Source: Arcobacter caeni
GTDB taxonomy: Bacteria; Campylobacterota; Campylobacteria; Campylobacterales; Arcobacteraceae
Reading direction: 5' to 3'
DNA: 64,000 nucleotides
NCBI RefSeq assembly: GCF_003063245.1
Contig: NZ_MUXE01000001.1
Span: forward strand, 124,001-188,000
Below, one piece after another: positions 33,722 to 57,834 of this stretch. The notes beneath the pieces are model-generated. The model made no database searches. It had not been told where the DNA came from and saw only the letters and a list, made by a program, of their open reading frames with translations. Position numbers and translations under genes: made by a program. Position 1 is the stretch's first letter; each line of letters starts with the position of its first letter.

Positions 33722-33732
33722 TTTATTTCCTC

Positions 33733-34341
33733 TTATATTATAATTTTATGTAATTTCTGATTAGATAATTTTTTGTTATCAAATTTGTTAACTATCTCAA
33801 GGGTACTACCTTTTTTAATCTCTCTATTTTTATCATAAACAGCAATTAAAATATCTGATTTTTCAATCAAATATTCACCCAGCAAAGCATATTGTTCATT
33901 TCTAATTTTTCTTTGTTCTTCTATATTTTGATTTAAATAATTTTCTTTATCAAATTTTAGATTAATATAAACATCATCACATTTATTATGTTTTTTTATT
34001 TTTTCTAATAAATTTTCATACTCTTTTATTGAATCCACTTGAGATATATTATTTATTTTTAAACCTTTTCCAAAGGTATTTTTATATATCTCTTCACCAA
34101 ATGGTAAAGGAACCAATATCTTCATATCAGAAAAACTATCCAATACTACATCAGCAATAATCCTATCCACCCCATCTGCAAGTGGTGTTAAAATGATGAT
34201 TTCTTCAAGATTTTTATTTTCCAAAGATTTTTTCAAAAAATCTTCAATATTCTTTTTTATAAATGTAGATTGTTTATTTGAAATATCTCTATTACCTGTA
34301 ATACCAATATAAATCGTTTTTTTCATATATATTTTATCCAT
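33733..34341 (-). CDS. SLOG-like nucleotide-binding protein
   Basis: The 202-aa protein opens with a Rossmann strand and loop (IYIGITGNRDISN) and continues with EIIILTPLADGVDRIIADVV and MKILVPLPFGEEIY. This is the pattern of the SLOG/LOG-DprA superfamily, whose members bind or make nucleotide-derived ligands. The C-terminal half has EYLIEKSDILIAVYD before the final strands. Start is ATG at 34341 or, five codons later, ATG at 34326; no clear ribosome binding site decides. A 69-bp gap separates it from the helicase gene upstream, so it may begin a second transcript of three genes. Confidence 0.7.
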   Translation of the reverse strand: MDKIYMKKTIYIGITGNRDISNKQSTFIKKNIEDFLKKSLENKNLEEIIILTPLADGVDRIIADVVLDSFSDMKILVPLPFGEEIYKNTFGKGLKINNISQVDSIKEYENLLEKIKKHNKCDDVYINLKFDKENYLNQNIEEQRKIRNEQYALLGEYLIEKSDILIAVYDKNREIKKGSTLEIVNKFDNKKLSNQKLHKIII

Positions 34342-34410: not shown

Positions 34411-36492
34411 TTATAAAAACTCACTCTTTAATCCATAAGATGTTACAAGTAAACTTTTCTTAGCTCTAGTTGCTGCAACAAAAACTAAAGATTTTTCTTT
34501 TTGTAAATATTCTTTATTTATTAATTCTTCATCTGATATTTCACTAGTTTCAAGAGGTACAATTCCTTTATTAATACTTGCTATAATTACATGATCAAAA
34601 TCTAATCCCTTAACTCTATGCATAGTTGCAATTCTCACATTTGTATCTGATAGATCATCTTTACTGTTTCTTGAAATTTTTAAAGTTTGTAAATCTTTTG
34701 ATGAAAAATAATCATAATAAGTATCAACTAATTTTTGTGTTCTTAGAACTATACAAATTTTTGATTCAGTATCAACTTTTTTTATATTTTTTATATATTC
34801 ATGAATATATTTTAATTCATCATTAAAATCTTGAAAACTTTTTATTTCTGGTTTAGGACCATTATATAATGATTTATAATCATTAGATGAATCATTACCC
34901 TCATCTAAATCATCTATTTTTTCACCAGCTAATAAAGCTACAGCCCATTTTCTTATTTCATCTGTAGTTCTATAATTAAGTTTTAGTTTTTTACTTCTAC
35001 CTTTAACATTGATACTACATTGTCCTAACACTACTTTATGTCCATATATTCTTTGATGTGCATCACCTACAATAAATAAATCATTTTCATGTTCATCAAC
35101 TAATGCCCTCAAAAGTTTAAAAGCTCTCATCCCAAAATCTTGAGCTTCATCCACAATAATTGAGCTATATTTTATATTATTCGTAGATGTATTAAGAATA
35201 TTAATTACATCATTTATTGCATCAGAAATTTCTTTGTAATTTTTACTAATTAAAAGATACCTATATTCATCAAAAACTTCCCAAATAAGTTTTCTTTGAT
35301 TTCTATTTAGTTTAGTTCCTCTTCCTGCTCTTGATGTTTTTATATATTCTTCTAGTGTTACTATGCCTTGTGGTTGAATTATTCGAGACCATTCTTCTTT
35401 AAAAAATGAATCTGGTAAATCTAAATTACTATTTTTTAGTATTAAGGCTTTATCCCATAACTCTTTAGTTTTATCATCATAAACTATTTGATTTTTGTAA
35501 CCATGTTTTGATAAAAAAGTATGTACCCATGAATCTAAATTTACTACTTCTATATTTTGTAAAGTTTTTTCATCACAAATTTTTTTGAGATTTTCATGAA
35601 TATCTAAAGCTAGATTTTTTGTAAATGTTGTAAATAAAACTTTTTTATTCTCAAAAAAACTTGATTGTTTTGCTAAATATTTAGCTCTATGCATTGCAAC
35701 AACAGTTTTACCTGTTCCTGCTCCACCTAAAACTTTTACTGCTCCATTATAATTCTTTTCTACTAACTTTCTTTGACTTGCATGTAAAAATACTCTCCAT
35801 TTTTCAAGTGGAGCATTAAGCATTTGCATAAACTCATCATCATTTTCAACAATATAAAATCTTCGTTTAGAACTCTCATTTTCAAGTGCTTTATTAAAAT
35901 CATTAGTATCTACTTTTTCAGATAATTGAGGATAAATATAATTATATACTTCTTCTATATTATCACCAGCTAAAAGATAAAATAGTGCTTCATAAACTTC
36001 TTCAGGTAAATATTTTCTAAAATTATCTAATTCTTCTTCATTTCGGATTTGTTTTACATAATCTAATAATTTTTCATTTACTCCTAAACTTTTTAATTCT
36101 TTATTTGTAAATTTATTAAAAAAGAGTTCATCACTATTTTTTTGAACTAGAGCTTCTTCTATAACTGTTTGAGTTTCAATAATTTGCAAACTACCTGTTT
36201 CACTATTTATACTACAAGTATGTTTTTTAGCCCAATCATAAGCAGCATCACAATTATCAACCCAAAGTAAAATATATACATTACTATCATCAGGATTCAT
36301 TACAATACATCTATAATTTTGTTCTAAAAAAATAGAATACATATTAGATGTGAAATTTAATTTTTCATAGTTTAAGCCAGGAGATTTAGGATCATTTTTA
36401 AATTTCTCAACTAATTTTATTGTTTCATTTAGTTGTGTTTTAGGTAATTTTGATAAAGATGTAAAAAAATCCGAAGATATTGCAACTTTCAT
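34411..36492 (-). CDS. RelE-like domain fused to UvrD/Rep-type helicase
   Basis: The first ~95 residues look like a RelE/ParE-type toxin fold (SDFFTSLSKLPKTQLNETIK, NMYSIFLEQNYRCIVM, ILLWVDNCDAAYDWAKKH). A superfamily 1 helicase follows: Walker A VLGGAGTGKTVVAMHRA (256-263), Walker B SSIIVDEAQDFGMRAF, motif V MHRVKGLDFDHVIIASI and motif VI FVAATRAKKSLLV. At 693 aa it is complete. Its ATG overlaps the large helicase stop by one base, so it belongs to the same coupled cluster. The N-terminal domain may target mRNA or the ribosome, or may only be structural. Confidence 0.82.
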   Translation of the reverse strand: MKVAISSDFFTSLSKLPKTQLNETIKLVEKFKNDPKSPGLNYEKLNFTSNMYSIFLEQNYRCIVMNPDDSNVYILLWVDNCDAAYDWAKKHTCSINSETGSLQIIETQTVIEEALVQKNSDELFFNKFTNKELKSLGVNEKLLDYVKQIRNEEELDNFRKYLPEEVYEALFYLLAGDNIEEVYNYIYPQLSEKVDTNDFNKALENESSKRRFYIVENDDEFMQMLNAPLEKWRVFLHASQRKLVEKNYNGAVKVLGGAGTGKTVVAMHRAKYLAKQSSFFENKKVLFTTFTKNLALDIHENLKKICDEKTLQNIEVVNLDSWVHTFLSKHGYKNQIVYDDKTKELWDKALILKNSNLDLPDSFFKEEWSRIIQPQGIVTLEEYIKTSRAGRGTKLNRNQRKLIWEVFDEYRYLLISKNYKEISDAINDVINILNTSTNNIKYSSIIVDEAQDFGMRAFKLLRALVDEHENDLFIVGDAHQRIYGHKVVLGQCSINVKGRSKKLKLNYRTTDEIRKWAVALLAGEKIDDLDEGNDSSNDYKSLYNGPKPEIKSFQDFNDELKYIHEYIKNIKKVDTESKICIVLRTQKLVDTYYDYFSSKDLQTLKISRNSKDDLSDTNVRIATMHRVKGLDFDHVIIASINKGIVPLETSEISDEELINKEYLQKEKSLVFVAATRAKKSLLVTSYGLKSEFL

Positions 36493-39400
36493 TATGAAAT
36501 CCTTTCTAATAATTCATTTTTTAATTCATTTAGTTTAGTAAGTGTAAATATTTTTATGCCATCTATATTTAAATCAGTTTCTTCTAAAACTAATGCTATA
36601 GAATACTCTTCCCATAAAAGTTCTGCTTCTGCAACAGTAATGCCTTCATTATTAACTAGTTCTTCTCCAACATTTGGAATTGGCATTTGATTTATAATAC
36701 TTAAATCTTTTATAAATTTTTTAACTTCATTATCAATTACATCATCATATATAGTTTCCCATTCATGACTTAAATTTTTAGAGATATTTGGGAATAAATT
36801 TATCTCATCATATAGTTCATTTTCAAGACCTTTATTAGTTACAAATAAACTATTTTTACTAAATTGCATTAAATTATAAATTCTTAATACTCCGGCCCAT
36901 GATGTAAATTCAAATTCTTGATTGTCATTTATATTTATTATAAATATAGTTTGTTCTAAATTGTTTTGTTTTAAATCCTCAAAATTGGCTATTGATAATA
37001 AAGCAACTTGATTTTTTTGAATAATTTGTCCAAAATATTTTGTAACAGAGTCAAAATTATCTTTTAAACTACTTGGTATAAAATCAATAAAACTTTTTAA
37101 TTCTAAAGGAATTTTTAAATATCCAGCAATAATTCCCAATGAAAATTTCTCAAAATTTGAATAATCTTCTTCTTTAAAAAGCTCTACCAATAATTCAAAA
37201 CTAGTTTGATTTAAATATCGTTTATACTCTTTAAAATATTTTTCTGTGATAGTTAAATTTAATTCTTGATGATTCAAATAATTTTCAAAAAGATAATTTG
37301 GTTTTGATTTATCAAATTTATTTACATCTTCCCATGTTAAAGACCAAACAATAAATTTACCACTTTTTGCAATTGCTAATCTTTGAGCAGTATCTATATC
37401 TACTCTTCTTTCATGATAGGCAAAACCATCAGTAAATACAACAATAGGCTTTAATTTAGGATTCTTTGGATAAAAAACAAAATCAGCTTTTGAATATATT
37501 GATACATTATCTTTTAAATCTAAGCTTACTTGTTGAAGTAAATCATATTTATATTTATTATCAAATTCTACAATATATCCACTTCTGCCTCTTACCATAT
37601 CTTTTTTAAATGTGCTAGTAACATTTTTTATTTTACTTAAAAATAACTCTTCAAGCATACTTTCACTAAGTCCATCTTGACTTATATCACTTATACTTTC
37701 TATTCTTTCAATAGTATTTTTTTCTTTTAAAATATTTTCTATTATATATTTTGCTTTATTCTTAGAAATTAATGGTCTATCAAAATTATTTTTATACGCA
37801 TATAAACATTTATAACAACCATCTTCACAATCACAACTAGTTATTTTAGTATTTGCAAGTTCTAACACTTCAAACAATGGATTTTTATCAATTATTAGTT
37901 GTTTTAGATAACCAGTTCCTCCAGGAACTGTATCATAAAGAACTAAATATCTTTTTGAACTTTCATTTACATTATCTACTTCATCATATATTCCAACTTT
38001 TAAATGATCAACAGAACCTTTAAAATAAAGCTTTAATCCAATATGAATAGATGCTATAAGTGAATGTAATTTTTCATCATCAATATCAAGATTTGTAATT
38101 GGTAAAAGAAGTCTTATTGCTTCAGAATCAAATTCCCTAAATAAATACAATGATTCAAAATAGTTTTTAGCATCTTTTCTATCTTCAATTTCACATATAA
38201 AAGAGTGATTCTCTCCTTTAAAAATATCATCCGTTGGTTTACCAAATTGAACTTTTCCACAATGCTTACATATTACAAATCCAGATCTTGGAACTGATTT
38301 TCCAGCAATTGATATATCATTACCAACTAAAGTAGTTTCTCCAAAATTTATCTCTTTAAAATTTACTTTTTTTATAAATTCAAATCCAAATGCACTATCA
38401 TCACTTTTTATTGCATAAGCATCTTCAATATTTTTTTTATCAAAATTAATTAATAATTGTTTGTTATAAAATTTTATCTCTCTAGAATCACTATCATCCT
38501 TGATTCTACTACTTTTATCATCACTAGTAGCCATTACTTGAGTAAGTCTTAAAATCTCTTTTTTTTGCCCTTCATCTGCGAATTGTTCACTTCCACATTT
38601 TGGACAAATAGCTATTTCTTCTGAACCTACTTTTTGAGTATGTGAACATTTATCACAAAATCTCCAAGTTTCTACTTCTGATATAGTATTTGGATCTATT
38701 TGATCTATATTAACTTTTCTTCCACCTGCATAAAAACTATTATTTGGAGCAAATTCACTTATTGCACTACTTCCTGCTCTTTCATATTCATAAGTGAAAA
38801 TATCATATTTTTTACCATTATCATCAGAAACGCTGTCTTTCTTTCGATAGATTACAGATTTTAATACTACACCACTTTCAGGGAAAGCATAATTTGGAAG
38901 TAATCCCTCATCTGCAAAAAATTCAAAAGTTAATTTTCTTTTTAGATTTAATAATATTCTTCTAAGTCCTTCATATTCACTTTTTATCTTTGCAAGATTT
39001 TCATCGTGATCTTGATTTTTTGCTTCTGCATTTTCAAACTCTTTTATTTTCTTTTTTAATGCACTCAACTGATTTTTCATATTAATTTGTTCTTGATTGA
39101 TTTGTTCAAGTTTTTCTAAAATAATTATAACTAAACCACTTTCTTCACTATTTCTTTTAGCAAAAGCAATTAATTTTTCTTTAGATGAACCATGTAATTT
39201 TGTTCCATATAAACAAAAAAAATCTTCTAGTAATGCATCAATCTTTGTTTCAATATATTTAAATAATGTGTATGGAAACGCTGTAACATTTGCATTTTTT
39301 ATATTTGTTAATACAAGGTGTAACTTATGAGGAAAATCTTTTTGTTCTATATTTTCAGAGCTGACCCAATTATCAATACAAAATGCTAAAAATTGTCTTT

Positions 39401-42400
39401 GTAAAATAGCAGAAGCATCTATATAAACACCAGGTGCATCTATACTTCCTTGCATCATCTCATTTGGTTCACTATAAAAATATAAATCATGACTATTTGC
39501 TGTTGCAATTGTTGCATTAAACGCATTTCCATCAGTTCTACCTGCTCTACCTATTCTTTGTAAGTAATTAGCTCCATTTGGTGGAACAGAACAAAGTACA
39601 ACAGAACTTAAATCTCCAATATCAATACCCATTTCAAGAGTTGGAGTTGCACTTAAAAGATTTGTTTTCCATGGTTCATTTTTAGCTCTTTTTATAAAAT
39701 TTGTTTCAACTTTTTCCCTATCATTTCTTGCTAGTAGTCCTGTATGTTCTTTTGGTACTATTCTTTGTAAATCTCCAAATTTATAAAGTTGTTTATAATA
39801 ACTGTTCGTTGATATTTTTGAAGAATAATTACCTTGACACTCTTTTCTAAGACACGACATCCCTAATGAAATATCATATTGTTTATTACTTACTGTTAAT
39901 TTATGTTTGCAAATATTACACTCTAACTCTTCAGTATTACTTGTTATATATAAATTATCAGGATTTAATATCCATATATTTGAACCTTTTACTTCTGATT
40001 CTAAAAGAATTTTTGCTCGAACTAATTCACCTAAGACAATTCTAAAAATCTCTTTTGTATCAGGTACTAAGATAAGATTATTTAAAAAATTTGATACTAC
40101 CCATCTATCACACCAAGTATTTTTTGACTTATTAGAAACTTTATCAAACTCTTTTATATTACCATCAGTTAAAGGATTTGGATTTCTAGAACTTGGACTA
40201 AATTTTGCCATATATAATCTTCTAGGTTTTAGCTGATTAATTTGGTAAGTTTCTCCACCAGTAGTTATATATGGCTCTAAATGTATACTTTTAATCGCAC
40301 CATTATTTTTAAGATATATTAAAAAACCTAAAATAAATTTTTCTAAATCTTTTTTGTTTATTCCTCTTAGAAGTTCTATTTCATTTTCTAATTTCACTAA
40401 AAGAGAATCTAAAATAGCTTGATAATTATCCACATACATAACAGAAGCACCACTTCTTTCAAGCGTTCTTCCAATATGAGATTTATATCCATATTCACTA
40501 TGTATCATCCAGTCAATTCTTTTATCTATTAAATCAATTAGATCTTTGGGATTATTAAGTTCATCAGTTTTAGTTAAATTATCATATTCCCTTAACCACT
40601 CCATATCTGGAGCGATTAAGGTAGATATATATACTTTATCATCATTAAATTTATTTTTCCAATAATTACTAACTGTTTTTCCAAAGTCATTTAGAGATAT
40701 TGATTCTTTAGCATTTAGATCAAAAGCTTGTTGGATTGCACTTCTTATTGTAAATTGATAACTTCTTGCTCCAAAAAAACCTGCTCTTTGTGCTGCATCT
40801 TGAACACTATCAGAAAATGCGATAAGTTTTTTATCATCATTATAGAAACTTGAAAAATTTTGACCAATTAAAACACTTGTTAAGCTAGCAGCTCTTGAAC
40901 CTAAAATTGTTAAAGCATTTTTTGCATTACAAAATGGACAATGATGATGTGATTTACCTTTACTATCAATATTATTAGATTCAAAAACTTTGATTCCACT
41001 TTGTTCATCTTCATCAATCTCAAAACCATTCTGATTGATATAATATATACTGCCCGTAATATTTTGAGGAGTCTGACTAATAGGAAAAATAAATTTGACT
41101 CTTGGGTCATTACCAAAGAATGCTTGATAAAATAAATCTAAATCATTTATAAGTTCACCTGTACCACCACTTTTTTTAACTCCACCCCATCCAGTAGCAT
41201 GACAATCCCTACAATGTAATATTGGATAATGTTTTACATCTTCTTTTGATTTTAAATCATGATCATATGTAAGTTTAGGTTCACTTTCTAATGTAGCAAC
41301 CATTCTTGCTAATTCTCTAAGCCATAATTGTACTTTTACAAATAAAAATGGTGGATAGTCTTTCCCCGTCTTTTCATTTTTAGCCCATGAAGTTAAAGCC
41401 AATAATGAATTTATCATAAGAACAAAAAATCTATCTCCTGATTTAATAGGCATACTTCTTACAAATGAATCTATTATTTCACTACGAGATTTTATCTTTC
41501 CATCAAGAGCTTTTAATAAAAGTTTAAAACAATAAAGATTTTTTAATTTTTTTCCTAATTCAACTTTAAACTCTATATCTTCAACATTTAAAGCTTCTTC
41601 ATTAAACCAAAGTTTGAATTGAGTTGCAATATAATCATTCATATTTTTATAATTTGAATAATCTAATTCTTCTATTTGATTTGGCATAGGATAAAAAATA
41701 ATATTATCATGATTATTAGCAAAAAACTCTTCAGCATTTATTCTATACTCTTTTACAATTGAGTTTTCATCAAAATTTTCATCAAATATATCACTTGCAT
41801 ATACTCTTATTGGCTCAGTACTATCTCCACCTAAAGTAGCCGATGTACCAATACAAGCAATAGAATCTTTTTTTACTTTTAGTTTGGCTCTAACTCTTCT
41901 TAAAAGTGAAGCTAAATCTGTCCCTTGAGCTCCATCAAAAGTATGTATCTCATCAACTGCTATAAATTTTAACACATTAGTATCAATATTGTATTTCCAA
42001 ATCTTTTGATCCCTTGGACGCATAAGCATAAAATCAAGCATTTTATAGTTTGTAAGAAGTATATCTGGAGGGTTATCACACAGTGTTTGCTTATCTGTAA
42101 TAACATACTCTTCACTCATACTTTTTTGGGCATTATCATCACTACTACCAATATACAAACCAACTCTTACACCATTTAGATTTGGAGTTTTTGATATAGT
42201 TTTTGCAAATCTTTTTGCTTGGTCAGTTGCAAGAGCATTCATGGGATAGATAATAATTGCTTTGATACCTTTAGTATCTTTTGTTTTAAAACAATGATTC
42301 AAAATAGGAAACATAAAAGATTCAGTTTTACCCGAACCAGTACCAGTCGCTACTAATGTTGATTTTGGATTATCATTTCCTAATCTTTGAAAAGCTAACT

Positions 42401-42638
42401 CTTGATGATAGTATGGTTTAAATCCATCATCTAAAATATCTGGGAATAAATTTTCTTCAACAACACCTTTTTTAAAAGGAAGTGAAACAGATATATAAGG
42501 ACCTTTAAAAAGTTTACTATCTTCTTCAACAAAATTTTTCATCATATCAAAAAATGCTGGAGTTGAACTAGGAAATGTTGTAGTTAAAAAGTCTTTAACT
42601 CCAGTAATAAGTTGACTTGCTAATACTGATGGTATCAT
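36492..42638 (-). CDS. 2048-aa DEAD/DEAH helicase with DUF1998 (DruE/DrmA-like)
   Basis: This very large superfamily 2 helicase has Walker A LVATGTGSGKTESF (95-107), motif II VDEIHTFDGAQGTDLASLLR (~226) and a C-terminal helicase lobe (LLSATPTLEMGIDIGDLSSV, LQRIGRAGRTDG, ~985-1050). A coiled coil (~1190-1260), a zinc ribbon (CDKCSHTQK ... CPKCG, ~1322-1345) and a DUF1998 region with DTVPGGTGYL and cysteines CDCEDGCYKC (~1595) follow. Near 1720-1770, ADFVFYP and VVFTDGFAYH resemble a Vsr/DUF559 nuclease, but the usual Glu before xDG is Phe. Druantia DruE and DISARM DrmA are the nearest relatives I know. It overlaps its neighbours by 4 and 1 bp. Confidence 0.9.
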   Translation of the reverse strand: MIPSVLASQLITGVKDFLTTTFPSSTPAFFDMMKNFVEEDSKLFKGPYISVSLPFKKGVVEENLFPDILDDGFKPYYHQELAFQRLGNDNPKSTLVATGTGSGKTESFMFPILNHCFKTKDTKGIKAIIIYPMNALATDQAKRFAKTISKTPNLNGVRVGLYIGSSDDNAQKSMSEEYVITDKQTLCDNPPDILLTNYKMLDFMLMRPRDQKIWKYNIDTNVLKFIAVDEIHTFDGAQGTDLASLLRRVRAKLKVKKDSIACIGTSATLGGDSTEPIRVYASDIFDENFDENSIVKEYRINAEEFFANNHDNIIFYPMPNQIEELDYSNYKNMNDYIATQFKLWFNEEALNVEDIEFKVELGKKLKNLYCFKLLLKALDGKIKSRSEIIDSFVRSMPIKSGDRFFVLMINSLLALTSWAKNEKTGKDYPPFLFVKVQLWLRELARMVATLESEPKLTYDHDLKSKEDVKHYPILHCRDCHATGWGGVKKSGGTGELINDLDLFYQAFFGNDPRVKFIFPISQTPQNITGSIYYINQNGFEIDEDEQSGIKVFESNNIDSKGKSHHHCPFCNAKNALTILGSRAASLTSVLIGQNFSSFYNDDKKLIAFSDSVQDAAQRAGFFGARSYQFTIRSAIQQAFDLNAKESISLNDFGKTVSNYWKNKFNDDKVYISTLIAPDMEWLREYDNLTKTDELNNPKDLIDLIDKRIDWMIHSEYGYKSHIGRTLERSGASVMYVDNYQAILDSLLVKLENEIELLRGINKKDLEKFILGFLIYLKNNGAIKSIHLEPYITTGGETYQINQLKPRRLYMAKFSPSSRNPNPLTDGNIKEFDKVSNKSKNTWCDRWVVSNFLNNLILVPDTKEIFRIVLGELVRAKILLESEVKGSNIWILNPDNLYITSNTEELECNICKHKLTVSNKQYDISLGMSCLRKECQGNYSSKISTNSYYKQLYKFGDLQRIVPKEHTGLLARNDREKVETNFIKRAKNEPWKTNLLSATPTLEMGIDIGDLSSVVLCSVPPNGANYLQRIGRAGRTDGNAFNATIATANSHDLYFYSEPNEMMQGSIDAPGVYIDASAILQRQFLAFCIDNWVSSENIEQKDFPHKLHLVLTNIKNANVTAFPYTLFKYIETKIDALLEDFFCLYGTKLHGSSKEKLIAFAKRNSEESGLVIIILEKLEQINQEQINMKNQLSALKKKIKEFENAEAKNQDHDENLAKIKSEYEGLRRILLNLKRKLTFEFFADEGLLPNYAFPESGVVLKSVIYRKKDSVSDDNGKKYDIFTYEYERAGSSAISEFAPNNSFYAGGRKVNIDQIDPNTISEVETWRFCDKCSHTQKVGSEEIAICPKCGSEQFADEGQKKEILRLTQVMATSDDKSSRIKDDSDSREIKFYNKQLLINFDKKNIEDAYAIKSDDSAFGFEFIKKVNFKEINFGETTLVGNDISIAGKSVPRSGFVICKHCGKVQFGKPTDDIFKGENHSFICEIEDRKDAKNYFESLYLFREFDSEAIRLLLPITNLDIDDEKLHSLIASIHIGLKLYFKGSVDHLKVGIYDEVDNVNESSKRYLVLYDTVPGGTGYLKQLIIDKNPLFEVLELANTKITSCDCEDGCYKCLYAYKNNFDRPLISKNKAKYIIENILKEKNTIERIESISDISQDGLSESMLEELFLSKIKNVTSTFKKDMVRGRSGYIVEFDNKYKYDLLQQVSLDLKDNVSIYSKADFVFYPKNPKLKPIVVFTDGFAYHERRVDIDTAQRLAIAKSGKFIVWSLTWEDVNKFDKSKPNYLFENYLNHQELNLTITEKYFKEYKRYLNQTSFELLVELFKEEDYSNFEKFSLGIIAGYLKIPLELKSFIDFIPSSLKDNFDSVTKYFGQIIQKNQVALLSIANFEDLKQNNLEQTIFIININDNQEFEFTSWAGVLRIYNLMQFSKNSLFVTNKGLENELYDEINLFPNISKNLSHEWETIYDDVIDNEVKKFIKDLSIINQMPIPNVGEELVNNEGITVAEAELLWEEYSIALVLEETDLNIDGIKIFTLTKLNELKNELLERIS

Positions 42639-44350
42639 TTGTTTTCCTCATAATAGGTATTTTTGCCACTTCCTAATTTATTAATCAATCTTTTATCAAC
42701 CATTTTTCTAAGAATCTCTACAGATCTACTATCTTTGAGATTAAGAAGTCGCTTAACTTCTGAAGTTGTGATTTTATTATTCTCTTTCAAATAATCCAAA
42801 ATTACTATTTCTTGTTCCAACGGTTTTCCAACGGTTTCCAACGGTTTTCCAACGGTGGCATTAAAATCTTTGTTGATATAATACTTCATTCCTCTGCCAA
42901 TACCATCTGAAATAAGTAATTGTTTATCTACGAGTTTTCTAAGTATTTTTGATGTATCAGCTGGATGAATAGCCCCAATATCTGATAATCGTATATTTGA
43001 GATTTCATTTTCTACGAATGCTAATATTAAAGCTAATCTTTCATTTTTATCAAGATTTACATAATCTTTATCAAATAACTCTTCAAGAGAATCTTGTATC
43101 TCTTTTGGAAAAAGTGAGATGGTAGGCATAAAAAGCATTGTTGTTTCTAATTGCGTGTTTTCTTCAAGATATGGATATTGCCAATGTTGCTCCATCCAAG
43201 CTCTAAGCATCTTTGGAAAACCTGAACCTGCTTGTTCTCCCATACCAATATATTGAAACATTTTTTGTAAAGTTTTGTTTCTACAGTCACTATGTCCACC
43301 TTTAAAAGCATCCTCTTTTGATACTCTTAATAATCCTGGATTTCTAAAACTAAAACCTTTTGGATGTTTTACAACTTGAATTCCAATTCTTCCATTATAA
43401 TTTGCATGAATAAGTGTGTTTATTAGAGCTTCTCTTATTGCTTCATGGATATTTGACTCATCAATTCTTTGAAATGAATCTTTTAGTTTAAATGGCACTT
43501 TTAATTCAGATGTTAGTTTTCTATAAACCTTTTGACTAAACTCAAAAAGATTACCACTCCAAGTTCCATCTGTTGTAATTCTATCTACCCATCTATCTTC
43601 AGGATTTTCTGTTTGTTCTTGATAATCCACTAAATAATTAGGAACTCCATCAAGTATAGATCTAAATTTACCAAACATCAAAAGTCCTGCAAGTGTTAAA
43701 CCCTCTATATTATCTTTTCTATCTTTTTTATATCCACCAAGTTGGATTAAAAACTCTTTATCATCAAGTTCTATCCATGGATGATTTAGTTTTGTTGATT
43801 TATAAATATTTCTATATGCTTTTAAGCTATCCATATCTATATCTTCCATAGTAAATCCTTCTATTATAGAAGTATCATTTGATTCATTTACTGCATCTGC
43901 TAAAAAATGTTTTACTATATCTTCATCTGCTTTGATGTCAGAATCATGGTATCTTAGATATGTTCCAGTTAGAGGATTTTGACCAATATATATTGGTTTT
44001 ATAGTTCGTGATACTCGTGGAATATTTATAAGAATTAAATCTTTTTCTTGACAATTTATAACTTGTAAATCAGCATCATTTAGTATATTTTTATTTACTT
44101 TTTGAGGATTATTAATCGTAGTCCAAAAATCTTTTTGAACTCTATCAATATCATTGATACCTAAAAACTCTAAACTACCATCTTTTAGCTCTTTTGCACC
44201 AAGTAAAATTTTACCACCATCAGTATTCGCCATGGCACTATAACTTTCCCAAAGGTCTTTTGGAATTTCACCATTACCATTTTGACCTTGAGCTGATTTT
44301 GCTTCAAATTGGTAGTTTTCTCTGAGTTCTGTTAGCTCTTCACAAGTCAT
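42635..44350 (-). CDS. AlbA_2/Schlafen-type ATP-binding transcriptional regulator-like protein
   Basis: The 571-aa protein begins with an AlbA_2 (Schlafen-like) domain (YQFEAKSAQGQNGNGEIPKD, then SYSAMANTDGGKILLGAKE). A GHKL-like ATPase region follows (IHEAIREALINTLIHANY, GFSFRNPGLLRVSKEDAFKG, MGEQAGSGFPKMLRAW), as in COG2865 proteins. Winged-helix segments lie at the C-terminus. A heptad VGKPLET-like repeat separates two of these and is encoded by tandem 21-bp DNA repeats. Such proteins recur in defence islands, often as regulators or nucleases; which one here is unknown. It starts directly after the dprA-like stop and overlaps the large helicase by 4 bp. Confidence 0.8.
   Translation of the reverse strand: MTCEELTELRENYQFEAKSAQGQNGNGEIPKDLWESYSAMANTDGGKILLGAKELKDGSLEFLGINDIDRVQKDFWTTINNPQKVNKNILNDADLQVINCQEKDLILINIPRVSRTIKPIYIGQNPLTGTYLRYHDSDIKADEDIVKHFLADAVNESNDTSIIEGFTMEDIDMDSLKAYRNIYKSTKLNHPWIELDDKEFLIQLGGYKKDRKDNIEGLTLAGLLMFGKFRSILDGVPNYLVDYQEQTENPEDRWVDRITTDGTWSGNLFEFSQKVYRKLTSELKVPFKLKDSFQRIDESNIHEAIREALINTLIHANYNGRIGIQVVKHPKGFSFRNPGLLRVSKEDAFKGGHSDCRNKTLQKMFQYIGMGEQAGSGFPKMLRAWMEQHWQYPYLEENTQLETTMLFMPTISLFPKEIQDSLEELFDKDYVNLDKNERLALILAFVENEISNIRLSDIGAIHPADTSKILRKLVDKQLLISDGIGRGMKYYINKDFNATVGKPLETVGKPLEQEIVILDYLKENNKITTSEVKRLLNLKDSRSVEILRKMVDKRLINKLGSGKNTYYEENK
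42817..42855. repeat. tandem CCAACGG repeats inside the AlbA-type gene
   Basis: The heptamer CCAACGG starts at 42817, 42828, 42838 and 42849, with spacings of 11, 10 and 11 bp and T-runs between. Two full 21-bp units encode two VGKPLE(T/Q) heptapeptides in a linker. A change by 21 bp keeps the frame; a change by 10 or 11 bp breaks it. Confidence 0.9.
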
Positions 44351-45517: not shown

Positions 45518-47604
45518 TACATTTTTCCTGTAGTTGATAATGAGGCTGGAAAAATATTTCCAGAACCCTTTCGTTTTAATAATGCAGATATTACTGTAAC
45601 CGTCCATCCAGAATCAATTACATCATCAATCAATAATACTGCCCCACTAGGTATTTTATCTATTATATCAAATACTCCATCAAGATTCTTCGCTTGATGA
45701 TATGAATTATTCATCATTTTTTGAGGCTGATTATGTCTTATTTTTTTAACAGCTTCAATAAAAGGTAAATTAAGTTTTTTAGCTACTTTATTTGCAAAAT
45801 TAGGCACTAATGTTATATGATTTAATGAAGGAACACAAGTTACCCACGCAGGAGAAGGAATAGGATTCCAATTTTTAATCATTTCTACAAAAGCATCAAC
45901 CAGTTGATCGGAAAATTCACCATAATGTTTATTATTAGCTACAACTCTGCCCCAACCTGAATCTTCCCATCGTGAAAGTATTCGTCCTTCGTCTGCCCTT
46001 AATTCTTCTTTTATATTACCTCTAATTCCATATATTAACAAAGCATCTGGCTTTACTTGTTTTTTAGGGCTAAATACAATATCGCTTTTTTTAAGAAAAT
46101 CTGCTGCTTTTAAACCATTTTCATGAGAAAATTCCCCGCTTAAGGCCATAACACAATTTCCACATTTACCACAAGCTTGAGGATATGGGTCGTTTAAAGC
46201 TTTTTGTAAAAACATCATAAGACACTCATTTGTATCTAAATATTTTTGCATTTCTTCCCACTCAGATAATCTTATATTCAAGATAGCTTGAACTTTTTCT
46301 TTATTATAAACATACTTATTTGGTGTTCTATTCCATTTATTCCCAATTTTAACAACTGGGGCTGGCGATTCTACATTAAGATATTTTAATGTTTTTTCAA
46401 CTTCACCTTGAGTTATATTTAATTCTTTTTGTAATTCAATTATTGATAATCCATTACTTTTTTCCAGTTGGTTTAAAACTATATTAATATTTTCTTCTTT
46501 AGGGAAAGATGAGCCTCTAAAGAAATCATGTATATTATCATCTTCGTGACCACTGAGCAAAACCCCATAAGCTTCATCTATACCACGACCTGCTCGACCA
46601 ACTTGTTGATAATAACTAATAATAGAGCCAGGTGCTTGATAATGGACTACAAACCCTAAATCACTTTTATCAAATCCCATACCAAGGGCAGAAGTTGCAA
46701 CTAAAACTTTTATTTTATTTTCTAAAAGCTGATTTTCTAGAAATACCCTATATTCATCGCCATTTGCAAAAGAATCATCTTCAACTCCACTGTAATATGC
46801 ACTTGAATTTATACCATTTTGATTTAGCCATTGTGATACAACTCTTGCATCTCTTTGTGTTAAAACATACACTATTCCAGAACCGTTAAAAGTTGGGATA
46901 TGTTCAATTAACCATGCTAATCTATGAGAAGGTTCAGGTAATCTAATAGTATGAAGTGATAAACTTTCTCTTCTAAGATTCCCCCTAATCGTTATAAGAC
47001 CATTTATTTGATTCTCAATATCTGTGATTACTCTATCATTCGCTGTTGCTGTTGTTGCAAGGATAGGAGTATTTGAAGGTATTTGTCTTAATATACTTGT
47101 AATTCTTTTATAATCAGGTCTAAAGTCATGTCCCCAATCACTAATACAGTGCGCTTCATCTATTACAAAAAGTCCTATTTTGCTTGCAATAGGTTCTATT
47201 ACATCATGCATAAAGCTTTCGTTAGCTAATCTTTCAGGAGACACCAAAAGAGCATCAACCTTATTTTGTAAAATTTGATATTTAATGATATTCCAATCAT
47301 AAGTATTTGAAGAATTAATAGTTACTACATTAAGTCCAAGTTTTTTAGCAGAATCTATCTGATTTCGCATAAGCGCTAAAAGAGGAGATATTATAATTGT
47401 TAATCCATAACCCTCTTCTCTTAAGTATTTTGTAGCAATAAAATAAACAATACTTTTACCCCATCCTGTTTTCTGAACAACAAGAACTTTTTTTCTTTGA
47501 TTTACAACACTATCAATTGCTTTAAACTGATCTTCTTTAAAATCTACACTTTGATTTTGTAAAGAATCTTTTAAATATTGCTGAGCTTTTTCTTTAGTTA
47601 ACAT
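45517..47604 (-). CDS. RecQ-family helicase fused to phosphoribosyltransferase-like domain
   Basis: I place the start at ATG 47604 ([13 protein letters not shown]), because AAAGGAAA lies 7 nt upstream; this gives 695 aa. The RecQ part has Walker [13 protein letters not shown] (44-51), DEAH box [20 protein letters not shown], the [20 protein letters not shown] motif and a zinc region (CLMMF ... CGKCGNC). The final ~150 residues are a ComF-like phosphoribosyltransferase, with the PRPP loop [20 protein letters not shown] near 656-670. The fusion places a nucleotide-binding module on a DNA-unwinding enzyme. It overlaps the methyltransferase gene by 11 bp and the DprA-like gene by 1 bp. Confidence 0.9.
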
Positions 47605-50600
47605 TATTATTTCCTTTAAAATACTCCCAAGCGATTTCATAGTCTTTTTCTCTATTGCATTTTTCAAATGGGGCTTTATAGATTATAGTTCTTTCCATTG
47701 GTCCATCTGGTGTTGTGTCGTCTATGATAGTTCGGTGGATTTCTCCTTCTTCCATATCAATAATATCTTCCCAACCAAGTGGTTTTTCTTCTACTACTTC
47801 ACCATTTATGATTATTTTGTATGGAGTGTCAGATTTAACAGCTTTTCGTGGTAGTCCAACTCCTGTTAGACCTTTAGAAACTGTAAATACTATACGACCA
47901 TTTATATCATAAAATGTTTCATTTTCATTTTGTTTAAGTACTGGAAATTGAATACGATAGATAGTTTTTAACTCTTCAAGTGTTAATCCAAGTTCCTGAG
48001 CCACTAAAACATCTATCTCTACTAAAGCTTGTCTTCTTTCATAATCAGTTCGTAGGGCTACATCTCTTTGCCAATTTGGAGTTAAATTTTTAAAGAAATT
48101 TTGGTTTAATCGTGGCTCGTTTGGTTTGCTCCAACTATCGTTTTTAAACTCTTCGCAAAATTGTTCTTCCCAAAGTTCAGCATAATAAATCGTTAAACAA
48201 GATAATGATAATGCCCTACCAATCAATTTATTATTCAAATTTATTAAAGGAAAATTCTCAATTGCATCTGCCCATAAGTCACCTTTTCCTAAATTCTTTA
48301 CTACAAAATCCATAACTAATGAATTCATTGAACAGAAGAGAGATATTACATGCTTTATATTTTCAAAAGTAATACTAACTGATGTATTTACATGTGAAGA
48401 TTCAGGAGGAATAATTGAAGCTATAGTGGTTCTTTCTCCTGATTGAGACAATCTTCTTCTATGCATATATCTGTAAAAATCAGTAATTTTTTTTCTTTCA
48501 TTTCCAAAATTTACAATAGGAGCTTTTTCAATAAATGTATTATCTACTAAAGTATAATTTGTTCTTGGTAAATAAAAATCAGAAATACAAGTTAAATCTA
48601 TAATAGAATATGCTTTATGAGTATCACAAATTCTTTTGGGTGTTTGGTAAAATGGATTAGCTACATAAAAATGTGGTCCAGAAAAAATTAGATTTAAAGG
48701 TGTATTAACAAATACTGTATTTCTTACAATTAAGTTGTCATTTTGAGCATTAACTTCATTCCAAAATGTTGATGGTGTAGGATAAAATAATGTATCTTTT
48801 AACTTTATATTATAATCAGTAAATTTTTTTAGAACTTTAACCAATTCTATTGTGTGAATAGATGGTAAACTTGATTCTTCATAATTTCCATTTTCTTCAA
48901 AAAGTTTTGAAAATAAATGTAATTCATCTTTAGTTACTTCTAATATTCTATTTTTATGCCCCTTAATATTCCAATTATCATTTTCATCTTTAATACCACT
49001 TACCGTTCCAATTCCTAAATCTTGAAAGGATAAATCGATTGTAATTGGTAGAAATAAATTTGAGATAGTTTTAAAATTTATTTCTTTATTACTATTATTA
49101 AAAATATTTATACTGAATTTATTTCTATTTCCTATTTCAAACAAAGCTTTTTCATTTTGAAATTGAAAATGATATTTTAATCGTTTATAAATTTCTTTTC
49201 TTAAATTCCCACCATTTGCATCTTCATATACTCCTTCAGGATGTAAATAACCACATACACCTCTGTTTTGAAGTATTTTCCAGCCAAGTGGTAAAAAACA
49301 CTTATAAAGATTCGCTTTCATACCTGATAATAGTGGATAATTTACTATTGCATTAAGAAAATTTTGTGTAGAACTATTTCCTTCAAACTCTGATATATAC
49401 TCATTTAATAATTTTGGGTAGTTATCAAATGTTTCATTTCTTAAGTTATTCAATTTATTAGCACTAAATGTTCTAATGTCAAATAGTGGATTAGCTTCTC
49501 CCATTATCCCCGATTCATTCCAAGTCACTTTTAGCCAAGGTGGATTTCCAAGCACAATATCAAATCCACCATTTTTTGCAAAAATATCTGCAAACTCTAG
49601 CTCCCAGTGAAGAAATTTTTGAGCTTTACTTACTCTATTTACTACTTGAAGTCTAGGATTTTTGGCTATAAATTCCTCTACATCTAGTACTCCAAGCTCA
49701 CTTAATTGAGTTGCTCTTATATCATCATCTATCGTATCACTAAATAGTTCTTTATCTAAGCTCATCACCATACCATCTTGTTTTTTAACTAAGATTGCAA
49801 TATCAGTTAAAAACTCTACTCTTGAAGGCAAAGATTCAGCTTCATCTATTGGCCAAAACCATAAACTACACCAGTAGTTCATCACTGTTTTTAGTCTCAT
49901 ATATGGGCTTGAGCTTTTGATGTTTTGAGTTAGTTTTTCTTGCTCAAAAACTCTATCTTTGTAGCTTATGTCTGTTTGTTTAAATTGGTCAGCTTTTGGT
50001 TGCCCCCAAACTTTAAGTGGGTCGGTTGTTTTTTTCTTCATATCATTGATATGACGAGTGTGTTCTTGCCAAAGTTTATCAATAGATAGTGATAAATCAA
50101 GTAAAAGTTTTACTTCCTCTTTGTTGTATGGTTTGATAAACTCTTTTCGCCATTTATTAATAGTATCAATTTCATCTTTTTTTAGCTCTTTTATTACTTT
50201 GTCAGAGTAATTTGCCATGCCTTCATCACCTAGTAAGAAGTGATAAACCTCTCTATCTTTTGTTCTTCCTGCACTTTTTGTTTCTTCTTTTTCATCTACA
50301 GTTACAAGTGGAAGTTTTGTAGGGTCATCAAATAGTGAACCTGTACTTTGAGCCAGAGTTATTTCTCTGGTTTGGGTTTTCCATAGAGTTTTTGGACTAA
50401 GTCTTTTTGGTGCATCAGCATACCAAAGAAGATCTTTTTTTGTAGCATTTAGTGTTGATATATCATATACTTCTCTTCTTGCACCTATAAGAGAATTTCC
50501 ATTTTCTAGTTGGAAACCAAACCATGGAATAAATGTTTTTCGCACTTTATCTTCTTCCCATGTAAACATAGCATTTAACCAAAGAGAGATTTCTGCTAGT

Positions 50601-52468
50601 TCTACTGCTGTTGGGTTTAAATCTATCCCATAAACATTGTTATCTGCTATATACATCTTCACTCTTTGAAGTTCTTCTGTGTATTTGTCATGGGCAATTT
50701 TATTGCCTGTTTCGATTTGTTTTTGGTGTAGGTAAGCCTCACTTAGTTGATTTATAGCTTCATTTAAAAAGGCTGCACTTCCCATAGCTGGTTCACAAAC
50801 TGTTAAGTTTAGTATTTCATCTGCTTTTTTGCCAATTTTTCCTTGGTCATCGATTTCTAGTAATTCTTTTAGAGCATATTTTACAAGTGATTTTGTAAGA
50901 ACTTCAGGTGTGTAGTATGAAGCTGATTTTTCTCTATCACGACCAGCCAGTCTATAAATAAAAGATCCCTTTGAGTATCTTCGTATAGTTCCATCGCTGT
51001 TAAATACTCTCTCATCTTTTGTATATTCGCTAAGTTGTGCTTCATTTACAAAGTACGCATTTTCTAATTCTGTTGGATTTGAATCTGCTTTTTTTACTTC
51101 AAATAGATCCTCTTTAGCAATAAATCCTTTGTAGCTAAGTAGTGCTTCATACACTGCACCTAATTGATTAATTCCAAGATTAGCATAAGAGATTCTTCCT
51201 CTTTGCCCTTTTCCTTTTTGCTCACGACTTAATGATAGACTTTGAATAATCTCTTGCCAAATATGATTTCTAAGTTTCACTCCATTTAAAAGTGGTGTTT
51301 TAGCTGGGTCAAAAAGATGTGATTTTAAAGGAGCTATCGAGAATAACTCCTTTCCTGTTAGATTTACTCTATGGCTTTCTCTTCCATTAAAAATCATATC
51401 AAAATATAATTTTATACTTTCATCAAAAAAGTATCCATTTTTATCACTATCTGTTAGAAGTGGCATAAGCTCTAAATCTCTTAAAGTTTCTAATGAATAA
51501 CCTTTGATAAAAGCTTGAGATTTACTAGGAATAAACCCTAACTCTGGTCGTGATTCGATATAAAATAAAAATAGAAGTCTATACATGTATCTTAAAGATT
51601 CTCTAGTTAGGTCACTTTCTAAGTTTAACGTGTTTAATAAAAATTCTGAATTGTTTTTTTGATGATAATAAATAGCTTCATTTCCAAGAAGTTCAACTGC
51701 ACTTCGCAAGCTATATTTCAAATCTTGTGTTACTCCAAAAGCGTGTTTATGAGAGTTTTCATCAAGTGTATCAAGAAGACTCAATCCATCAGTTGGGGCG
51801 ATAGTATCTTTATGAAGTAATATACTAAATGCTTTTAGTGTATTATCTTCTTTTCTTTCTATTATATCTTTGATGTCAAATCTTAAATATCTTTTTTGAG
51901 CCCATTTTGCTCTCTCTATAAGAACTATTTGATAAGCATTTACAATCATTACCCATCTTGGTGGGAAATTTTGAGTAAAGATATGCGAAGTTATAATTGA
52001 ATCAAAATTTAACTCACTGTTATAAGTGTCTAGTTCTTTTAATTGCTCTTTTTTTAGAGTAGTTGTTAAAATATCACAACCATCTTCACAAAAGCTTTCA
52101 ACAATATATAAATATGGCAAACCATCAGATTTATTTACACATGAAAGTATAGGTATTGTAAAATCATCAATATTTATGCTTTGTTTGTTGTATTCATAAT
52201 CAAAAATATCCAAAAAGAGTTTCATAAACTCTCTTTGAGCTTTGATTTTATCTTCTATTTTTGAGCTTTTTTTATTTAGTTCTTTTAGAAGTTCTAAGTA
52301 AGATGGACCTATTCCTCTAACTCTTTTAAAAGGTGTTTTATAACTTTCATCTTCGTTTTCTTTATCTTGCCATGATGAAATTTGTTCTAATGTATCTTTT
52401 TCAAATATTTCACTAAGATAATGGTTTGTATAAAACTCATTTTCATTTGTAATTCCAACTAAATTCAT
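47594..52468 (-). CDS. large adenine-specific DNA methyltransferase (DrmMI/PglX/Eco57I class)
   Basis: The 1624-aa protein has a gamma-class N6-adenine methyltransferase core: motif [21 protein letters not shown] (~555-575), [20 protein letters not shown], and catalytic motif [14 protein letters not shown] (~970-980). A long N-terminal region and a C-terminal target-recognition-like region flank it, as in PglX and DISARM class 1 DrmMI. I see no clear nuclease motif at the N-terminus. It would mark host DNA so that the helicases can tell self from foreign DNA. It overlaps the SNF2 gene by 4 bp and the RecQ-like gene by 11 bp. Confidence 0.9.
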
Positions 52469-55287
52469 TTACTACCTCTTAGTGCTGATATTACTTGGAT
52501 AAATGGTTCTTTTTCAATCTCCATACTATCTTTTATCCAATTGTGATAATCAGTAAATATTTTTTCAATTTCATGCTGTTTTTCTAGTCGTTTTGATTCT
52601 TGTCCTAGGTCTAATTCTAGCTGTCCAAGATGTCTTGCTTTTAATTTATCTAATTCTTGAAGTTTTTCATATATTTTTGTCGTCATTTCATTATCATAAA
52701 AATCTCTTTTTAAAACAATATACTCTTTTGCTTTTTCAATAGCTATAGGAAGATTGAATTTAATATGAGTTGTATCAAATTCACTTACACTATTTGGAAA
52801 TTTTTTACTGTTTAAATTACTAATTTCTAAAAGTTCTTTGAAAGTTAAAATAGTATCAAACTTATTATCAACAAACTTGATTCCAAGCCACTCATCAATA
52901 ATTGGTTGAGCTTTTTTATTTGGAATAACACCACTTATTAGATATATTAATTCATTTTGATTTAGAGAATTAAGCGTTAAAATAGGAGCTTCAAGAGTAT
53001 TGAAATTTGATAGTAATTTATCTTTTAACCACTCTAATAATGGATGTTGTTCCCAAAGATAATGAATATTTGGCCATGCAGATTCATTTTTTCTTGAGTT
53101 TTTTATCTCTTGATTGATAGTTTTAAGGTCATTTGATAATATAAAATGCCATTTATCTGGTATTACTTCATTTGGAAGCATTTTAAATCTATATTTTAAA
53201 TCATCAAGATCACTTGCTAGTAATTCTATTCTATCTTCTTCAAATCGAACTTCAAGTTTTTGAGATGTTTGTAAGAATTTTAAAGCATCTGTTGTGTATG
53301 CTAAATCATCTTTAAATAGTGATTCTGAACTTGCAAACTCAACTTTTTTTGTATCTTCTTTTTGGGATTCTTGTTCATTTACTTCATTTAAAAATGATAA
53401 AAAATCAAACTCTGCGTGAGATGCATTGGTGTCTAATTCTTTACTAAACTCATCTGCATCTTTTTGGCTTTCTATTGCCTCAGCCACTATAGCCTCTTCT
53501 TCCTTTTCATCATACACATTCATAAATGCACTTGGATCACCAATATTTAAAGCTGCTTGTTCATCTTTTTGAATAAGAATTTCTAAAATTCTATTATCCC
53601 CTTTGAACTTTTCATCATTTGATAAAGTCTGCATATAATATATTTCTGGTTCTTTTTCTTGACCATATCTATCTACTCTTCCATTTCTTTGTTGAAATAC
53701 CATAAGTGACCATGGAATATCAAAGTGAATCAATCTATGAGATAAATAGTGTAAGTTTATACCTTCACTTGCAACATCTGTTGCAATTAAAATTCTGATT
53801 TTAGAGTTCTCTTGCCCAAAATCTTCTACTATTTTATTTATTTCTATATCACTCATTGTTGAACCAGTCATAGAAACAATTTCATCGTCTTTTAGATTTA
53901 AATCATTTTTTAAATGTTCTTTTAAAAATTCTAGTGTTTTAATTCTTTCTGTAAAGATTACTATCCTATCATCAGTAGCTTTTTTCCACTTCATTTTGTT
54001 TTTAATAAGATTTACTAACTCTTGGTATTTTGAAAAACTATTTTTATCAACATCCTCAAGCTTTTCTAGTAATAATTCTAAAGTATCAATATCATCATTA
54101 TACTCATCACCTAAATCTGATATTTTTTTAATTCTGTTTTTAATTGATTCGATACAAGCTATTGGTGAAGAAAGAAGTGATTTTATAAGTGTTGTTTTAA
54201 ATAGTTCACTTCCTTTTCTTTTGTTAGAATCTATTGTTTTAAAACTAATATTTGAAATAAATGCAAATACATCTTCTTCATAAATAGATGCGTTTGATTT
54301 AATAGTAAAGATTTGTCTTGTTTTAAATTCATCTTTTACTTGATCTGCAATATCTTTTTTAAATCTTCTTATTACTAAACCCTTATCTTTGAAATCATCT
54401 GATGAATATTCATTTGGATTTGCAATTGCTGTTGGGTCAAGCATGTTTAGTAATGAAGCAAAACTTTTTGCACTACCGTCATGTGGAGTTGCAGAAAGCA
54501 TTACTAATGTATCACATCTACTTGAGATTAATTTTGCTAATTTTGATTTTTGAGAACCGCTATTTCTATCTGCTACATTATGTGCTTCATCAATTATAAT
54601 AATATCCCAATAAGCTTCTTCTATATAAGATCTATAAAGTGCTTCTTGCTTTAAAGTATCTATTGAAATAATTGATTTATCATAGTAAAAAAATGGATTC
54701 ATATTTGCTGGAATTTTATTTCTAACTTTTTGAATACCTTGAGAATCAAGTCTTGTAAGAGGAATTGAGAATCTATTCCAAAACTCTTTTTGAAATTGAG
54801 TAAGCATACTTTTTACAGCAAGGACTAGTATTCTTTTACCTTTACCTCTTTTCATAAGTTCACTTACTAAAATACCAGCTTCTAAAGTTTTTCCAAGTCC
54901 AACTGCATCAGCCATAAGAATTCTTTGTCTTGGTTGATTAAGTGCTTGAAGAGCTGGTTCAAACTGATAATTTACACTATCCATTGCAGCTTTGTTTGCT
55001 CTATGAATTTTAGTGTCTGTTGGAACAACATCTTTTAAAAGTGATTCCATATAAAGCAGTGATTTTGAATAGTTTGGAGATTTATCAATTACAAACTCTG
55101 TATTTAAAGGATCTATAACTGTTATATTTTTTTCATAAGTGGTTAAAAATATAGCTTCTTTACCTTTGATAAAATTTGAAATTCCATCACATGTTAATTC
55201 ATACTCATCATCAGCAAGTATATCTACTCTTCTTATTTTCCACTGTGCATCTCTTATTATTACTCTTTGACCTGGTGCGTATTTCAT
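52465..55287 (-). CDS. SNF2-family helicase/translocase (DrmD-like)
   Basis: The 940-aa protein has a SNF2 ATPase: [20 protein letters not shown] (125-144), [22 protein letters not shown], and the C-terminal lobe [40 protein letters not shown]. The N-terminus ([15 protein letters not shown]) resembles the small domain found before many HepA/DrmD-type helicases. DISARM class 1 pairs a similar helicase (DrmD) with an adenine methylase, as here. It is the first gene of the seven-gene coupled cluster; a 96-bp gap separates it from the WYL regulator and may hold a promoter. Confidence 0.9.
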
Positions 55288-56310: not shown

Positions 56311-56316
56311 AGATTG

Positions 56317-56349: not shown

Positions 56350-56403
56350 ATTTTTGAGTTTAATCAATTTTTCTATAAATAAATTTATATTTTGCAAATG
56401 AAA

Positions 56404-57833: not shown

Positions 57834-57834
57834 A

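Follow-up and report, generated by a model that had tools for sequence, protein, structure and literature searches.

Do seven tightly coupled genes in Arcobacter caeni, four of them encoding different helicases and one a DNA methyltransferase, make up a defence system that has so far gone undescribed? The genes lie in a 64,000-nucleotide stretch of contig NZ_MUXE01000001.1 (the window; positions 124,001–188,000, assembly GCF_003063245.1), which has a G+C content of 27% and comes from a genome of 2.4 Mb in 59 contigs. They fill positions 34411–55287 of the window, all on the minus strand, and their junctions measure 4, 11, 1, 0, 4 and 1 bp when the third and fourth genes are taken to start at 47604 (the ATG used by close homologues) and 45517, respectively. 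Genes, strand and junctions are exactly those given in an initial annotation of the sequence, and its domain calls were confirmed by Pfam and PADLOC and, for a RelE domain, by the predicted fold. The statement in the same annotation that the cluster matches no defence system does not hold, as four genes proved to be orthologues of ARMADA Type II genes and two correspond to PsyrTA by full-length profiles. The best explanation of the locus, which we hold at a probability of about 0.77, is an ARMADA Type II operon that carries PsyrTA and an AlbA/GHKL-ATPase gene as cargo between armB and armC, with the components acting as separate, layered defences and the cargo occupying an exchangeable slot.

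By sequence comparison, the cluster is an armA-armB-armC-armD operon of ARMADA Type II interrupted by PsyrTA and an AlbA/Schlafen-type gene. In the system described by Bell et al. (2025 preprint, PMC12458937; statements on this and other cited articles refer to the available portions of their text), four genes in strict order encode ArmA (BrxHII/RapA-like), ArmB (PglX/YeeA-like), ArmC (YprA) and ArmD (RelE-GajB). The core genes of the window are armA (52465–55287), encoding a BrxHII/RapA-like SNF2 helicase of 940 amino acids (aa); armB (47594–52468), a PglX/YeeA-like adenine methyltransferase of 1624 aa; armC (36492–42638), a YprA-family helicase of 2048 aa with an MrfA Zn-binding (DUF1998) domain and a putatively Vsr-like C-terminus; and armD (34411–36492), a RelE-fold domain fused to a GajB-like UvrD helicase, 693 aa. 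The order on one strand is kept, and three genes break the step from B to C. Identity to the ArmA, B, C and D proteins of an Escherichia coli plasmid is 48, 45, 36 and 46%, nearly full length, with the alignments of ArmA and ArmB spanning residues 3–940 and 1–1617. The eight residues mutated by Bell et al. could be located in the E. coli plasmid proteins by their published numbering, and all eight are kept in the window: K136 and D236 of the ArmA Walker motifs, N971 (NPPW) and G605 (S-adenosylmethionine (SAM) motif) of ArmB, K110 and D234 of ArmC, and K266 and D454 of ArmD. The E. coli copy adjoins Zorya II genes and a DruE-like helicase, matching the published Zorya-Druantia-ARMADA array (the Druantia labels were assigned here). 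The likeness to ARMADA Type II covers the four proteins, their order and strand, the RelE-UvrD fusion, the DUF1998 helicase and the mutated residues, and the difference lies in the three extra genes between armB and armC. The available text of PMC12458937 puts emphasis on a "strict gene order" and on arrays of defence genes next to the operon, with no mention of cargo within it.

Profile searches with PADLOC and Pfam describe the arm products as an SNF2 protein (DrmD-like), a type IIG/DrmMI-like methylase (ArmB matches the PADLOC type IIG model with an E-value of 4e-299), a DruE-like helicase in which Pfam recognises the MZB (DUF1998) domain, and a UvrD/GajB protein, the GajB profile matches being from PADLOC. 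ArmC aligns with E. coli ArmC over almost its whole length at 1310 bits, versus 121 bits in a local alignment with the E. coli DruE-like helicase. At its C-terminus D80, D98, H103, D110 and R114 are invariant in 17 aligned homologues, a pattern that we take to resemble the Vsr motif. The N-terminus of ArmD has no Pfam match to RelE; its predicted fold (pLDDT, the predicted local distance difference test, 88.7) is that of RelE, with 3bpq_B as the best hit (E 1.8e-4, target template-modelling score 0.74). Compared with ArmB of G106, a genome of the same genus (L015, L016), ArmB of the window is 84% identical over residues 1–720 and 61% identical over residues 733–1624, which looks like a replacement of the target-recognition half.

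The three genes between armB and armC begin with psyrT (45517–47604; extended to 47667 by the open reading frame (ORF) tool), for a RecQ helicase of 695 aa with a C-terminal phosphoribosyltransferase domain, and psyrA (44351–45517; to 45607 by the ORF tool), for a DprA-like (SLOG) antitoxin of 388 aa. PsyrT covers positions 4–685 of the 689 in the PADLOC PsyrT profile (E 4.5e-287), and its match to Pfam Pribosyltran (4e-5) reaches 23.4 bits versus a cut-off of 26.3. PsyrA covers positions 1–393 of 398 in its own profile (E 4.1e-131) and matches Pfam DNA_processg_A. The pair resembles known PsyrTA in that both proteins align near end to end, the toxin gene comes first and the two adjacent genes overlap by 1 bp; it differs in its placement within an ARMADA operon. 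PMC8790059 lists PsyrTA among toxin-antitoxin systems, with RecQ as the toxin, and PMC9122126 gives DprA homologues as the antitoxin component of shosTA, "syrTA" (so printed) and rqlHI. The third gene (42635–44350) encodes a 571-aa protein with Pfam AlbA_2 (Schlafen-type) and HATPase_c_4 domains and a weak winged-helix match, and may serve as a regulator or effector.

Full-length ArmB is present in four of 397 sampled genomes of the phylum, namely those of the window, G106, G330 and, in two pieces, G145; partial matches at 29–34% identity occur in five more. The contig of G330 stops after armB. In G106, armB and armC are separated by genes for a 1084-aa helicase-like protein, AriAB (PARIS) and AlbA, and in G145, from another family, by those for a 1242-aa protein, PsyrT, PsyrA, AbiEi and AbiEii, with armA ahead and armD behind in both genomes; AlbA was not detected in the G145 insert. 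As these inserts differ, the seven-gene set is not conserved; an insert at that place is. The split ArmB of G145 (L111:3586–8420) is encoded in two overlapping frames of 1197 and 459 aa.

A wider survey was based on an ArmB-alignment scan of 84,980 species genomes, from which the best 80 of 525 confirmed loci were taken; eight plasmid loci, selected from 27 records with at least 80% cover, brought the number to 88. Among the best 80 of the 525, the closest named relative by ArmB is a Sulfurimonas metagenome-assembled genome (Campylobacterota). The distance from armB to armC was counted in 72 loci, leaving out the 16 of 88 without armC in view downstream (nine of which have more than 2 kb after armB). 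It is below 120 bp in 24 loci, 120–600 bp in 4, 600–2000 bp in 16 and at least 2000 bp in 28. The other two junctions served as controls. Spacing between armA and armB falls below 120 bp in 72 of 77 loci, with one locus at 120–600 bp, three at 600–2000 bp and one at 2000 bp or more, and that between armC and armD is below 120 bp in 44 of 46 loci and 120–600 bp in two, the last count being biased because a big insert moves armD beyond the fetched stretch. ArmC is fragmented in L077, L071, L079 and L098. As part of the explanation given above, and with the same confidence, we take the armB-armC junction to be a recurrent slot at which unrelated defence cassettes are exchanged, the window representing one state of it.

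The cargo appears to turn over. None of the six cargo-bearing pairs with ArmB more than 80% identical shares a cargo protein (E 1e-10): L084 and L090 (88.7% in ArmB, inserts of 6.5 and 6.8 kb), the three pairs formed by the Marinobacter loci L043, L051 and L083 (84–88%), L079 and L097 (82%), and L037 and L039 (81%). In BLASTN alignments of nine pairs, homology breaks off 13–65 bp ahead of the armB stop codon in every case; for the six pairs testable at both ends, it picks up again at positions −6 to +1 relative to the armC start, with local alignment ends soft by some bases. The cassettes were probably exchanged by recombination in the flanking arm genes. An ArmB tree was built for 77 loci (53 with cargo and 24 without), including the window, G106 and G145, with some rows long-branched; L027, loci with partial ArmB and those with gaps of 120–600 bp were left out, and cargo was called at 600 bp or more, or above 2 kb where armC was missing from view. 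Presence and absence of cargo require 14 changes on this tree, 12 of them forced by well-supported branches. Presence is also more clustered than under shuffled labels (1 of 500 shufflings as low), and lineages therefore differ in how often they carry cargo.

To describe the inserts, PADLOC was run at an E limit of 1e-8 or 1e-10 on 40 cargo proteins, drawn from 29 loci in all (28 of the genome loci, plus G106), compared with 153 tabulated cargo proteins of at least 150 aa; two of the 40, from G106, stand outside the 153. A PADLOC model was matched by 29 of the 40, and coverage of a model reaches roughly 80% or more in at least 13 of the 29 loci. These well-covered models are AriAB (G106), ZorA1 (L038), ZorA2 and ZorB2 (L053), PifA (L054), HEC-05 (L051), GajA and GajB (L088), MkoA (L084), LeoBC (L083), PDC-M49A (L091), PDC-M68B (L092), AbiLi (L029), PD-Lambda-2_B (L045) and PDC-S04 (L059). 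Partial matches were returned for TmtA (L046, L028), HEC-06/GmrSD-like (L043, L069, L071), DrmD-like and UvrD-like proteins. The inserts include Zorya, PARIS, Gabija, Mokosh, PifA and GmrSD-like genes. Three large cargo proteins (L101:15983–19411, L077:14856–18695 and L028:17795–21160) have no PADLOC match and a fourth (L111:8417–12145) has no Pfam match; these four slot proteins are candidates for unknown defence genes.

Several observations weigh against an exchangeable slot for defence cassettes as the explanation of the locus. Cargo is absent from 24 of the 72 loci, including all five Enterobacterales loci of the ArmB tree, and ARMADA therefore does not need it. Eleven of the 40 scanned proteins have no PADLOC match, and many of the 29 matches are merely local, often to a helicase. 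With respect to turnover, armC is out of view in L043 and L083, so that their cargo was seen partly, the inserts of L079 and L097 have a 401-bp piece of DNA in common, and some less similar pairs do share cargo genes (for example L043/L058, with Zorya II, L069/L071, L064/L096 and L069/L101). The model of the ArmC C-terminus gave no convincing match to the PDB in a fold search. Finally, a copy of the AlbA gene 81% identical to that of the window lies at the same place in G106, next to different cargo. Because it is kept to this degree between the two genomes while the remaining cargo differs, AlbA may belong to ARMADA itself in this lineage rather than to the cargo. A role as a fixed part of ARMADA in general was rejected, since tblastn places AlbA in the armB-armC insert of two of the 88 loci (L054, L107; L068 was added by blastp clustering only) besides the window and G106, and a 46% identical homologue in G003 lies between hsdM-like and hsdS-like genes of an operon resembling type I restriction-modification (R-M).

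The alternative that survives best is that the armB-armC junction is a boundary between separately assembled A-B and C-D pairs, at which insertions are harmless, with PsyrTA and AlbA functionally unlinked to ARMADA. The order C-D-A-B on a Cylindrospermopsis plasmid (L027) means that A-B and C-D behave as two modules, as this alternative proposes, and the diversity of the cargo, with its eleven unmatched proteins, would also be expected. This alternative fits less well with the direction of the cargo: the 44 loci with a spacing of 600 bp or more contain 106 ORFs that reach 150 aa, of which 93 are co-directional with the operon, and in the window the cargo overlaps or abuts the arm genes. Moreover, many inserts are known defence systems, as in type I R-M and BREX operons (PMC12255303, PMC11411939, PMC12839542). 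A passive insert thus appears unlikely, although it is the most serious competitor to an exchangeable defence slot.

PsyrTA is found in other host operons as well. Its contexts were inspected in eight of the 11 phylum genomes with a PsyrT match (G380, G356 and G232 were left out) and for seven of 13 plasmid matches. In the phylum sample, the PsyrT genes nearest to that of the window (81–82%) belong to other families of the order, where PsyrTA lies among type I R-M genes: G252 has the order hsdR-PsyrTA-hsdM-hsdS, confirmed with Pfam, and in G195 and G287 sequence similarity and the sizes of the ORFs point to the same arrangement. On an E. coli plasmid PsyrTA is located between hsdS and hsdR, and on an Acinetobacter plasmid the BREX genes pglX and pglZ flank PsyrTA and a DUF262 gene; a figure of PMC10117892 shows Acinetobacter BREX loci with recQ, dprA and duf262 genes. 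On a Nostoc plasmid the pair stands alone, and in Sinorhizobium and Halanaeroarchaeum no annotated R-M or BREX operon surrounds it. The Arthrobacter and Tsukamurella matches are RecQ proteins that lack an annotated DprA neighbour. No host operon was recognised around PsyrT by the queries used in G052, G396 and G131, and PsyrT is in two frames in the last. In a PsyrT tree the window copy groups with the copies embedded in type I R-M operons and a copy at a contig end, apart from the other ARMADA-embedded copy (support 97/97), and the two ARMADA-borne genes are accordingly not each other's closest relatives. As a separate observation, a 538-aa ORF follows PsyrTA inside the type I R-M operon at L127:11554–13170, where Pfam identifies an HNH nuclease, and an ORF of the same length and place is present at L125:5783–7399; it is absent at the corresponding place in L126. 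This ORF reads as an insertion upon an insertion.

These settings correspond to "guilt by embedding", for which PMC12255303, PMC11411939 and PMC12988326 cite Payne et al. (2024), and in which defence genes are found within type I R-M, BREX and Hma operons. The likeness is that defence cassettes sit inside modification-based operons, for example between hsdS and hsdR or between pglX and pglZ, and the difference is that the host operon here is ARMADA and the slot that between armB and armC. The "backup effectors" of BREX (PMC12839542) are similar in that PARIS-like and other effector modules are recruited to a methylase-based defence locus; the host there is BREX, and the word ARMADA does not occur in the available text of that article.

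A second alternative is the proposal of the initial annotation, that all seven genes form one integrated new system in which four helicases act in stages on unmodified DNA. The tight overlaps throughout the cluster, and the AlbA gene kept in place in the same-genus genome, are in keeping with it. E. coli ARMADA, however, was tested as ArmA-D alone and works as such, each of the four proteins being essential (PMC12458937), and the RecQ-phosphoribosyltransferase/DprA pair also occurs in type I R-M and BREX operons. The 1084-aa protein and AriAB take the place of PsyrTA in G106, and in G145 PsyrTA is accompanied by AbiEi/AbiEii and the 1242-aa protein with AlbA undetected; a seven-gene unit was rejected on these grounds. 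The annotation had put forward recurrence of the gene order as a check, and neither G106 and G145 nor any of the 88 surveyed ARMADA loci has the full set of seven. We consider integration of this kind very improbable.

The annotation had also pointed to DISARM, on account of the SNF2 and methylase pair, and to Druantia, on account of the giant DUF1998 helicase. As kinship this stands, ARMADA being termed a "missing link" between the two in the abstract of PMC12458937; as membership it does not. PADLOC was run on the 17 proteins between 27 and 63 kb of the window, and DrmD and DruE were indeed the best matches of ArmA and ArmC, with DpdF profiles second to PsyrT for PsyrT. In bits versus the NCBIfam cut-offs, the scores were 347.9/610 for DrmD, 173/500 for DpdE, 144/550 for DpdF and 86/800 for DpdJ, all under, and for none of the 17 proteins was the top PADLOC match DrmA, DrmB, DrmC, DruH or a Dpd modification protein. 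DISARM class 1 was rejected on the DrmD score and the missing DrmA, DrmB and DrmC best matches, Druantia on the missing partners and on a giant helicase that is far nearer to ArmC than to DruE, and Dpd on the scores of DpdE, DpdF and DpdJ with no 7-deazaguanine modification gene among the 17 proteins. On profiles and gene content, that the locus is a variant of DISARM, Druantia or Dpd can hence be dismissed as next to impossible.

With an ARMADA operon carrying exchangeable cargo as the preferred explanation, a division of labour may be outlined. The cluster is very probably anti-phage. E. coli ArmA-D together block phage directly: of 80 phages, 13 were countered, and the host showed no signs of dying. 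The methylase motif of ArmB is required for this defence; the Results of PMC12458937 contain no measurement of methylation. ArmB would mark host DNA, and self-marking of this kind, which the initial annotation also suggested, is plausible. ArmA, ArmC and ArmD would then act on invading DNA that lacks the mark, recognising and unwinding it and cutting or processing it, to which ArmC could bring its putative Vsr-like nuclease region and ArmD its RelE-like domain. PsyrA would restrain the PsyrT helicase until infection disturbs DNA or disables the first layer, and freed PsyrT would stop the cell, providing a separate, second and cell-sacrificing layer. From what is known of the two families, a layered function of ARMADA and PsyrTA is most likely. 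PARIS senses the anti-restriction protein Ocr (PMC9122126), and embedded systems that cover gaps of their host system are in print for type I R-M and BREX (PMC11411939, PMC12839542); we infer that cargo could cover gaps of ARMADA in a similar manner.

A bolder version of this explanation is that ARMADA Type II is a platform with a dedicated cargo bay whose limits coincide almost exactly with the armB end and the armC start. The cassette in it would be swapped under selection by phage counter-measures and drawn from a common pool of plug-ins, one PsyrTA lineage being shared with type I R-M and a more distant one with BREX. We put this forward tentatively and at somewhat below even odds. Were it true, PARIS would be directed against anti-restriction proteins and GmrSD/BrxU-like enzymes against modified DNA, and PsyrTA and AbiE would be suicide switches.

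All seven genes overlap or abut and are therefore very probably read from one transcript. Directly upstream of armA lies a gene with Pfam WYL and WCX domains (55384–56397, minus strand), a probable regulator of the operon; a WYL gene is also located ahead of armA in Haematobacter. An ORF of 111 aa on the same strand is likewise immediately upstream of the cluster. The left flank consists of a STAND-like gene and two others, followed by AIR-synthase-like and TruD genes and a ribosomal-protein/SecY region, and with such neighbours the island very probably sits in the chromosome. The three genes directly downstream of armD (27095–34341, minus strand, co-directional) encode a YpsA/SLOG-like protein of 202 aa, a protein of 845 aa with one weak, sub-cut-off Pfam match and a DUF4062-STAND-type ATPase of 1349 aa; they have no PADLOC match and are possibly another defence set. 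On the other side of the operon, a mobile element is suggested by genes (57081–60326, plus strand) for a ParA-like ATPase and for a protein whose LPD7 match is sub-threshold, and a 529-aa DEAD-like protein (61670–63259, minus strand) weakly matches the MADS protein mad8 (E 6.2e-7).

ARMADA, PsyrTA and the phenomenon of embedding are each already in print. No report of cargo inside ARMADA was found in searches of the literature on ARMADA, embedded defences and PsyrTA, including the available text of PMC12458937 and PMC13192584, and the armB-armC slot may already be known to the authors of the Bell et al. or Payne et al. studies. The cluster thus represents a variant state of a known system, behind which stands a useful general rule, and its identification as ARMADA and PsyrTA removes a false "new system". 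The rule is one of coordinates: the interval between armB and armC yields known defence systems, and so it should yield unknown ones. It also makes testable the question of whether nested defence genes guard their host system or merely ride along.

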